In this document: positions 60,375-63,723 of the stretch, in pieces
How positions within the stretch are numbered: the first letter of the stretch is position 1
Layout of the letters: every line of letters begins with the position of its first letter
Source: Megasphaera vaginalis (ex Bordigoni et al. 2020)
GTDB taxonomy: Bacteria; Bacillota; Negativicutes; Veillonellales; Megasphaeraceae
Reading direction: 5' to 3'
Assembly: GCF_900240295.1 (NCBI RefSeq)
Contig: NZ_OEQB01000003.1
Location: 62,001 to 126,000, forward strand
Length of the DNA: 64,000 nucleotides
Position numbers and translations under genes: made by a program
Notes under the pieces: generated by a model
The model's database searches: none
What the model saw: only the letters and a program-made list of their open reading frames with translations
Told to the model about the DNA's origin: nothing

Positions 60375-60403
60375 ATTATACGTCTGCACGATACATATGT
60401 CAA
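60375..60403 (-). promoter_or_regulatory. thrS promoter (perfect consensus)
   Basis: Minus strand TTGACA (60398-60403), 17 bp, TATAAT (60375-60380). Confidence 0.9.
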
Positions 60404-60490: not shown

Positions 60491-61498
60491 TTAACCTTTA
60501 ATCTTTTTAATAGCTTCCGTAATCATCGGAACGATCTGGAAAGCGTCGCCGACAATACCATAATCGCAAACTTTGAAAATCGGAGCATCTTCATCTTTAT
60601 TGATTGCAATGACGCAATCGGAGCCGCTCATACCGGCTAAATGCTGAATGGCGCCGGAAATACCGCAGGCAACATAGATCTTCGGGCCGACAGTTTTACC
60701 CGTCTGTCCGACCTGATGAAGGGCGTCAATCCAACCGGCGTCAACAGCAGCACGGGAAGCACCGACAGCACCGCCAAGAGCGTCAGCCAATTCTTTCAGC
60801 ATACCCGTAAACGGTTCGGAACCGTTCATGCCGCGGCCACCGGAAACGATGATATCGGCTTCTTCAATTTTAATACCGCCGCCGCCTAATTTAATGAGTT
60901 CAATGAATTTCGTCAAGAAATCAGCATCCGTCAATTCTACGGACATATCGATAACTTCACCCGTTGCATTGGCATCCGGTTCCGGTTTCTTGAATACGTT
61001 CGGACGAACTGTACCCATTTGCGGACGATTGTCACGGCAAATGATTTCAGCCATGATGTTACCGCCCAGTGCCGGACGGGTCCAGACGATAGTTTTGCCG
61101 TCTTCATCAACAGCCAGGCTCGTGCAGTCGGCAGTTAAACCCGTTTTCAGTTCATTGGCAACGCGGGGGCCGAGATCACGACCAATATTCGTAGCACCAA
61201 CGAGATATACATTCGGTTTAACTTTTTCAAAGAAATCCGTTAAAGCTTTTGTATAAGCCGTCGTGTTGTAATTTTCGAATTTAGGATCATCATACACATA
61301 CACTTTTTTTGCACCGCTGGCAATAAGTTCCTGTGCCAAGGGTTTTACGTTATGGCCAATCAGTACAGCGCCAACTTCGTCACCAATGGTGTCAGCCAGT
61401 ATTTTGCCCTGACCCAACAGTTCGAAAGCTACGTTACGTAATTTGCCTTCAAATTGTTCAGCGATTACATATACGCCTTTGTATTCTGCTACATCCAT
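60491..61498 (-). CDS. etfA: electron transfer flavoprotein alpha subunit (Bcd-linked)
   Basis: 335 residues beginning MDVAEYKGVYVIAEQFEGKL, with C-terminal FAD motif VSGGRGMNGSEPF, VGQTGKTVGPKIYVACGISG and AINKDEDAPIFKVCDYGIVGD. By recall this is very close to the M. elsdenii alpha subunit, whose ETF bifurcates electrons from NADH to crotonyl-CoA (through Bcd) and ferredoxin. The GTG/ATG ambiguity at 61498-61504 is settled in favour of MDVAEY, preceded by GGAGG. Confidence 0.95.
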   Translation of the reverse strand: MDVAEYKGVYVIAEQFEGKLRNVAFELLGQGKILADTIGDEVGAVLIGHNVKPLAQELIASGAKKVYVYDDPKFENYNTTAYTKALTDFFEKVKPNVYLVGATNIGRDLGPRVANELKTGLTADCTSLAVDEDGKTIVWTRPALGGNIMAEIICRDNRPQMGTVRPNVFKKPEPDANATGEVIDMSVELTDADFLTKFIELIKLGGGGIKIEEADIIVSGGRGMNGSEPFTGMLKELADALGGAVGASRAAVDAGWIDALHQVGQTGKTVGPKIYVACGISGAIQHLAGMSGSDCVIAINKDEDAPIFKVCDYGIVGDAFQIVPMITEAIKKIKG

Positions 61499-61518
61499 CT
61501 TCACTTATCCTCCTTAGA

Positions 61519-62322
61519 TTATATGATCTTTTGTGCAGTCAATTTTTCCATCAACGTTGCTACAGCTACACTCGGATCTTCTTCCTTAATGATGAGACCC
61601 TGTGTTCTCTGAGGCGGAGTGAAAATTTTGCGAACCTTTGTCGGAGACCCGGACAAGCCGATGAGCGATTCATCAACTTTAATATCTTCTGCAGAAAGCG
61701 TCGGGATTTCACGACGTTTTGCTTTCATTGTGCCGCGAATGGTCGGGAAACGAGGTTCATTCAATTCCTTAACTGCAGTGATCAAAACAGGGAAGTTAGC
61801 TTCCGTTACGATGTAGCCTTCTTCGTTCTGTTGTTTAACCGTAACTTTGGTGCCGTCAACGTCAATATGAGCAGCATAGGTAATCTGCGGAATGCCCAAT
61901 TCAGTAGCAACCTGCGGACCGACCTGAGCCGTATCGCCGTCAATGGCCTGCTTGCCGCAAAGAATGATATCAAACTGTTCGATACCTTTAATTTCAGCAA
62001 CTTTCTTAACAGCCTGTGCCAAGCAATAGCCTGTAGCCAACGTATCGGAACCGCCGACCTTTCTGTCTGTGAGGAGATAAGCATCGTCAGCACCCATTGC
62101 CAAGCCTTCGCGCAATACTTCGACAGCCTGGGGTGGCCCCATCGAAAGCAATGTTACCGTTGCTCCCTGGTTATCCTTTAACTGCAGAGCTGCTTCCAGA
62201 GCATTCTGGTCAAAGGGGTTGAAAATGTTAGGAACGCCGGCGCGAATGACCGTATGTTTTACGGGATCAATCTTTACTTCTGCCGTGTCCGGAACCTGTT
62301 TGACACATACCAATATTTCCAT
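61519..62322 (-). CDS. etfB: electron transfer flavoprotein beta subunit (Bcd-linked)
   Basis: 267 residues starting MEILVCVKQVPDTAEVKIDP, with NPFDQNALEAALQLKD, the AMP/FAD motif ILCGKQAIDGDTAQVGPQVA and the recognition loop ANFPVLITAVKELNEPRFP. Highly similar by recall to M. elsdenii EtfB. It binds the second (bifurcating) flavin together with alpha. GGAGGC before the ATG; 14 bases before etfA. Confidence 0.96.
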   Translation of the reverse strand: MEILVCVKQVPDTAEVKIDPVKHTVIRAGVPNIFNPFDQNALEAALQLKDNQGATVTLLSMGPPQAVEVLREGLAMGADDAYLLTDRKVGGSDTLATGYCLAQAVKKVAEIKGIEQFDIILCGKQAIDGDTAQVGPQVATELGIPQITYAAHIDVDGTKVTVKQQNEEGYIVTEANFPVLITAVKELNEPRFPTIRGTMKAKRREIPTLSAEDIKVDESLIGLSGSPTKVRKIFTPPQRTQGLIIKEEDPSVAVATLMEKLTAQKII

Positions 62323-62400: not shown

Positions 62401-63540
62401 TTACCGCAAGAGAGCGCCGGAAGTAACCATGCGCTGTACTTCGTTCGTTCCTTCATAAATCTGCGTGATCTTAGCATCGCGCATATGACGGGCAACAGGA
62501 TATTCTTCACTGTAGCCATAGCCGCCGAAGATCTGAACGGCATCAACGGTAACTTCCATAGCAATGTCGGAAGCATACATTTTAGCCATAGCAGCATCAA
62601 CGGAGAACGGTTTCCCTTCCTGTTTCTTCATAGCTGCTTTGTATACGAGAAGACGGGCTGCTTCAATTTTCGTTGCCATATCGGCAAGTTTGAAGGAAAT
62701 AGCCTGGAATTTGCAAAGCGGTTTGCCGAACTGTACACGTTCTTTAGAATATTTGATTGCATCTTCCAACGCTGCTTCAGCAATACCGAGAGCCTGCGCA
62801 GCAACGCCGATACGGCCGCCGTCCAAGGTCATCATGGCAATCTTAAAGCCTTTGCCTTCTTCGCCGAGAAGATTTTCAGCAGGAACTTTTACATCCTGGA
62901 ACACCAGTTCCATCGTTTGAGAAGTATGGATACCGAGTTTGTCTTCCTTCTTGCCGAATGTGAAGCCTTCCATGCCTTTTTCCAGAATGAAAGCGCTGAT
63001 GCCTTTATTGCCCTGAGTCTTGTCCGTCATAGCGAATACGACATAAATATCAGCGGCGCCGCCGTTGGTGATGAAGATCTTGGAGCCGTTCAATACATAG
63101 TGGTCGCCTTCTTTAACGGCAACAGTCTGCTGTCCGGAAGCATCCGTGCCGGCATTGGGTTCCGTCAAGCCGAATGCGCCCAATTTCGTACCTTCGCAAA
63201 GAGGCGTCAAATATTTTTTCTTTTGTTCTTCATTACCGAACTGCCAAATCGGATTAGCACAGAGAGAAACGTCTGCAGACAGTGTAATCGAAACACCGGC
63301 ATCATATTTTGCCAATTCTTCAACCGTCATGATGTAGCTCAAAACGTCGGCTCCGGCGCCGCCGAATTCTTCGGGGAAATAAGTGCCAGCAAGGCCCATG
63401 CCCAGCATTTCTTCAATTAAAGCTTCGTCATATTCATGCTTGTGATCACGTTCCGTAACTGTCGGCAACAATTTCTTAACGCCAAAATCTTTCGCCAATT
63501 TGACAAACATTTCCTGATCTTCTGTGTAATTAAAATCCAT
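62401..63540 (-). CDS. bcd: butyryl-CoA dehydrogenase (short-chain acyl-CoA dehydrogenase)
   Basis: 379 residues with N-terminal helices, the middle beta domain FGLTEPNAGTDASGQQT (flavin contacts), FITNGGAADIYVVFA and the C-terminal helices with the catalytic base Glu in QIYEGTNEVQR. By recall it closely resembles the M. elsdenii enzyme. It reduces crotonyl-CoA to butyryl-CoA in butyrate formation, taking electrons from the ETF encoded behind it. ATG has AGGAGAG upstream and a leader of about 150 nt from a strong promoter. Confidence 0.96.
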   Translation of the reverse strand: MDFNYTEDQEMFVKLAKDFGVKKLLPTVTERDHKHEYDEALIEEMLGMGLAGTYFPEEFGGAGADVLSYIMTVEELAKYDAGVSITLSADVSLCANPIWQFGNEEQKKKYLTPLCEGTKLGAFGLTEPNAGTDASGQQTVAVKEGDHYVLNGSKIFITNGGAADIYVVFAMTDKTQGNKGISAFILEKGMEGFTFGKKEDKLGIHTSQTMELVFQDVKVPAENLLGEEGKGFKIAMMTLDGGRIGVAAQALGIAEAALEDAIKYSKERVQFGKPLCKFQAISFKLADMATKIEAARLLVYKAAMKKQEGKPFSVDAAMAKMYASDIAMEVTVDAVQIFGGYGYSEEYPVARHMRDAKITQIYEGTNEVQRMVTSGALLR

Positions 63541-63694: not shown

Positions 63695-63723
63695 ATTGTA
63701 CAACTTTTCACAATATAAATCAA
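63695..63723 (-). promoter_or_regulatory. promoter of bcd-etfB-etfA
   Basis: Minus strand TTGATT (63718-63723), 17 bp, TACAAT (63695-63700). Confidence 0.75.
63696..63713 (-). promoter_or_regulatory. Rex (redox-sensing repressor) operator candidate
   Basis: Minus strand TTGTGAAAAGTTGTACAA; against the consensus TTGTGAA-N4-TTCACAA the two arms match at 7/7 and 5/7. It fills the -10/-35 spacer of the bcd promoter, where a bound repressor would block polymerase. Confidence 0.55.

Follow-up and report, generated by a model that had tools for sequence, protein, structure and literature searches.

In Clostridia, control of butyrate genes by Rex is known from C. acetobutylicum and C. kluyveri and has been predicted in Caproicibacterium lactatifermentans, with sites of the consensus TTGTTAAN4TTAACAA at thl-crt-hbd, cat and etf-bcd (PMC9600882). 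In S. aureus the Rex consensus is TTGTGAAW4TTCACAA, and the sites lie over or adjoin SigA promoter boxes (PMC2883068). The literature that we found on Rex in Megasphaera mentions only the presence of the gene, and a search covering mainly freely available papers returned no account of a regulon under Rex in either Megasphaera or Veillonella.

The locus described here resembles both systems in part. As in Clostridia, Rex-type sites stand at butyrate genes, and the metabolic logic is alike. Unlike the clostridial sites, which are built from TTGTTAA half-sites, those reported here have TTGTGAA, are rich in A at the centre and have a weak arm that is merged with the -10 box; the genes also lie in scattered operons, and rex is unlinked, adjoining an O-antigen-ligase-like gene. 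The TTGTGAAW4TTCACAA-type sequence and its overlap with a promoter box recall the S. aureus regulon, whose targets differ, being lactate, alcohol, formate and nitrate/nitrite genes and not genes of butyrate synthesis (PMC2883068). The best reading of the sequence data is that a known kind of control, Rex at butyrate genes, would extend to the Megasphaera family through a mildly unusual, asymmetric operator.

The bcd-etfB-etfA promoter

The window, which is the whole 64,000-nucleotide stretch of Megasphaera vaginalis DNA that was analysed, has as its last gene group bcd-etfB-etfA, on the minus strand from 63540 to 60491. The first gene of the operon, bcd (62401..63540), encodes a butyryl-CoA dehydrogenase of the acyl-CoA dehydrogenase family (PF00441, PF02770, PF02771); etfB (61519..62322; PF01012, and NF040731 at 325 bits, below cut-off) and etfA (60491..61504; PF01012 and PF00766) encode the beta and alpha subunits of electron transfer flavoprotein. 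These Pfam and NCBIfam domain matches show that the three genes had been named correctly in the initial annotation. The bcd product also matches an NCBIfam model for AcrC-like acryloyl-CoA reductase at 500 bits, below the model's cut-off, and its nearest named relatives are Colibacter massiliensis, Megasphaera micronuciformis and Anaeroglobus, at 88% identity. The interval separating etfA from the threonyl-tRNA synthetase gene contains a perfect sigma-70 promoter, TTGACA-17-TATAAT (60375-60403, minus strand), which apparently drives the latter gene.

The bcd promoter, also on the minus strand, consists of a -35 box TTGATT (63723-63718), a 17 bp spacer (63717-63701) and a -10 box TACAAT (63700-63695). 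The putative Rex operator is an 18-mer on the same strand, TTGTGAAAAGTTGTACAA (63713-63696), whose sequence and position both agreed on re-check. It had been placed exactly between the -35 and -10 boxes. The overlap with the spacer stands, since the operator takes in the last 13 spacer bases, but the right arm also includes five of the six -10 bases, so that the first five bases of the -10 box double as the end of the weak half-site. The agreement claimed earlier, 12 of 14 arm positions, is correct for TTGTGAAN4TTCACAA (left arm 7/7, right arm 5/7), whereas the clostridial TTGTTAAN4TTAACAA gives 11/14; the site is a degenerate member of the Rex operator class.

A scan of the window for matches with at most three mismatches to the Rex consensus yielded five, with 3.5 expected, and because this count is near chance the window alone proves little for a Rex site. 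The probability of a two-mismatch match within 350 bp before bcd is ~0.01, and it is the conservation in relatives, described below, that lifts the bcd-promoter site above chance. In pattern searches of the genome, TTGTGAAN4TTCACAA was found 118 times vs 60 for the reversed pattern; the majority of the two-mismatch matches lie inside genes and were set aside. The clostridial form TTGTTAAN4TTAACAA showed no excess (123 vs 132 reversed) and was rejected as the main form here.

Conservation in the family and the rex gene

The 17 family genomes yielded 16 bcd promoters, and every one of these retains the arrangement TATTG-N8-GTGAAAAG-N3-TACAAT, while their flanks diverge. By pattern search the motif occurs once in each of 16 of the 17 genomes, apart from a second copy in one of them; the sole genome without it is 82% complete. 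Among 12 non-redundant promoters, mean pairwise identity is 96% for TATTGATT at the -35 box, 98% for TGTGAAAAG within the operator and 100% for the -10 box, which is invariant in 12/12; in the same promoters it falls to 55% in the five bases that precede the motif, to 47% over 40 bp upstream and to 36% over 60 bp downstream. Nearly every family genome has TGTGAA at bcd; one has CGTGAA.

A pattern search selects for the motif that it reports, so loci fetched by Bcd protein serve as an unbiased check. The promoters obtained independently in this way agree on the conservation: the motif lies upstream of the Bcd orthologues of all eight named relatives (Colibacter, M. micronuciformis, Anaeroglobus, M. 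paucivorans, M. massiliensis and three Megasphaera MAGs). The motif is thus present at every Megasphaera-family bcd examined, as the earlier reading had required of related genomes. Upstream of three Bcd paralogues in M. vaginalis TGTGAA is absent, and in 23 members of the order from outside the family neither the bcd-promoter motif nor rex was detected.

The genome contains one intact rex gene, the absence of which would have refuted the initial annotation. Its 212-residue product is the genome's single match to the CoA-binding domain family and combines an N-terminal winged helix (PF06971) with a Rossmann domain (PF02629), both above the gathering cut-off. The top NCBIfam matches are all Rex (up to 252 bits), as are the best PDB matches (E 7e-46), and the recognition-helix core QIRKDL and the GxGxxG motif are retained.

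In 15/15 family genomes in which rex was found, its promoter contains TTGCGAAATAATTCACAA or a closely similar sequence, with one or two mismatches. The site lies about 100 bp before rex, overlaps a putative -35 box and is followed by TATAAT. Its invariant part, TTCACA, corresponds on the opposite strand to the TGTGAA kept at bcd, and the outermost half-site base varies at both promoters. This conservation points to TGTGAA as the half-site of the family's Rex, and we infer from the near-perfect promoter site that rex may be autoregulated. In M. vaginalis the final codons of the O-antigen-ligase-like gene ahead of rex lie within the rex operator. Strict near-perfect patterns found little in the relatives beyond rex.

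Recurrence at other genes and outside the family

Recurrence of the motif at other butyrate genes, which the initial annotation had proposed as a check, proved strong at thl (thiolase) and weaker and inconsistent at hbd. A bcd-type site occupies the same promoter position at thl in 13/17 genomes, M. vaginalis included (G013 was counted on the basis of an identical site sequence), and the second motif copy noted above, in G011, is a thiolase promoter. At these promoters TTGTGAAAAAATRTACTA lies over the -10 box, in the same place as at bcd; in M. vaginalis the sequence over the thiolase -10 is TTGTGAAAAAATATACTA. A second thl site, TTGTGAAATTTAGAACTC (of the TTGTGAAA type), follows exactly 32 bp further on, downstream of the -10, and persists in altered form in genomes that do not have the first site. 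In the relatives inspected, TTGTGAAAAATATTACAA or TTGTGAAAATTATTACAA lies 63 bp upstream of cat (butyryl-CoA:acetate CoA-transferase).

As a clear Rex target hbd was rejected as uncertain. In most genomes its promoter has a conserved TAGTGGATTTTTT and a -10 of the extended type (TGNTATACT) and lacks a clean Rex site; another regulator may act there. In several genomes TTGTGAAAAA is found near -283 of hbd.

The pattern WTGTGAAAAN5ACW occurs 92 times in the 17 family genomes vs 23 for its reverse; the binomial p of this excess is ~3e-11, a value that overstates independence because the genomes are related. When bcd and thl are left out, the counts are 63 vs 23. Some matches in coding regions are protein-conserved and were rejected (the gene before a purE-like gene; L276, L281, L299). 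Further sites in M. vaginalis precede the genes for glutamate dehydrogenase and shikimate dehydrogenase: two Rex-like sites lie upstream of the former (G000:C1:301601, 301698), and others lie between a LysR gene and the latter (TTGTTAAATAATTCACAA; G000:C10:1341, 1437), whose counterpart in one relative is also preceded by a Rex-like site. In the relatives, further sites precede other acyl-CoA dehydrogenases, flavodoxin and two genes named by eye from sequence, one flavin-reductase-like and one for an ECF transporter. The Rex-like sites at the ECF-transporter-like gene are 160-190 bp upstream in three relatives.

In several other Negativicutes a palindrome centred on A/T (ATGTGACATTTTTCACAA, ATGTGATTTTTTTCACAT) lies 38-68 bp ahead of the bcd start, and in a Megamonas-labelled genome two perfect or near-perfect Rex sites (TTGTGAACTTTTTAACAA, TTGTGATAAATTTCACAA) precede bcd-etfB-etfA-crt. 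Several of these outside-family cases come from one genus, so they amount to about four or five independent cases. The EtfA of the Megamonas-labelled genome has an N-terminal ferredoxin-like stretch (CVGCGACEPKCP) that is missing from the EtfA of the window, and its operon continues into crt.

Competing readings and the proposed switch

The bcd-promoter site is probably an operator for the redox-sensing repressor Rex, with TTGTGAA as a strong half-site and TGTACAA as a weak one merged with the -10 box. The presence of rex and the retention of the motif at the family's bcd promoters support this reading, which was also that of the initial annotation. In S. aureus, imperfect sites are bound more weakly by Rex, and one with three mismatches is still bound, at reduced affinity (PMC2883068). 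Some observations count against it: three bases of the Rex spacer at bcd (AAG) are also invariant, beyond the need of Rex alone; the strong arm reads ATGTGAA or ACGTGAA in some relatives, giving three to four mismatches overall; and in S. aureus some sites with at most two mismatches to the older TGTGAN6TCACA consensus gave no shift (PMC2883068). The right arm (5/7) could be conserved merely as a -10 box.

The main rival to Rex is a regulator of the Crp/Fnr family, acting at a real operator of the TGTGA-N6-TCACA type. This palindrome and the Rex consensus overlap, which leaves room for such a regulator; the bcd site fits TGTGAN6TCACA at 8/10 positions, two genes of the genome (L186, L187) are clearly of Crp/Fnr type, and the upstream palindromes of other Negativicutes (ATGTGATTTTTTTCACAT) fit both families. 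We nonetheless consider this assignment unlikely. A site over the spacer and -10 is in the position of a repressor, not an activator, and in every family genome with rex the TGTGAA half-site recurs at the promoter of that gene. The DNA-reading motifs of CRP and FNR are RExxxR and ExxSR, respectively; neither is present in the two clear candidates inspected (two further domain matches were marginal), whose helices read ARPSLSR and DRSAMSS and whose best solved relative is Listeria Lmo0753. That promoter strength alone accounts for the conserved spacer, the likeness to a Rex site being fortuitous, is more improbable still. The -35, the -10 and the A-rich spacer are indeed conserved together, and the hbd promoter, too, conserves a stretch in which there is no clean Rex site. 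Promoter strength alone is insufficient, however, for copies of TTGTGAAA that no -35/-10 interval encloses, one located downstream of the -10 of thl and another 63 bp upstream of cat; the rex promoter has the full palindrome, and the motif is 4-fold enriched over the reversed pattern and mostly intergenic before genes, many of them for redox or fermentation functions. A chance match, of which a few per 64 kb are expected at three mismatches, is refuted by the conservation at all 16 family bcd loci found, and the motif recurs at thl; the probability left to it is negligible.

If Rex is the binder, the NAD+-bound dimer would bind TTGTGAA and TGTACAA, covering the spacer and the -10 box, so that RNA polymerase would be unable to start bcd-etfB-etfA. 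A rise in NADH would release Rex and allow Bcd/ETF to be made, and NADH would then be spent in butyrate formation. This block by NAD+-bound Rex is the most likely mechanism, given the established biology of Rex in S. aureus (PMC2883068) and the position of the site; that Rex binds here, that NADH acts in this direction and that the switch has this physiological role are all inferred. The weakness of the right arm is most readily explained as a compromise imposed by its double role as half-site and -10 box. Since thl, rex itself and, in some relatives, cat have this type of operator too, butyrate synthesis would be switched as a set.

In the rumen and the human gut, Megasphaera and its relatives convert lactate and sugars into butyrate and caproate. 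We tentatively suggest, at somewhat less than even confidence, that Megasphaera and its kin possess an asymmetric Rex operator in which a strong spacer half-site, TGTGAAAA, is paired with the -10 box as the second half-site, and that it may serve as a graded switch through which NADH controls thl and bcd-etfBA together, and cat as well in some species; the second thl site, 32 bp or three helical turns downstream, suggests cooperative repression. If this is true, a family-wide operator at thl and bcd-etfBA, and at cat in some genomes, would provide a handle on the butyrate output set by NADH, and a Rex regulon in Negativicutes would become directly testable.
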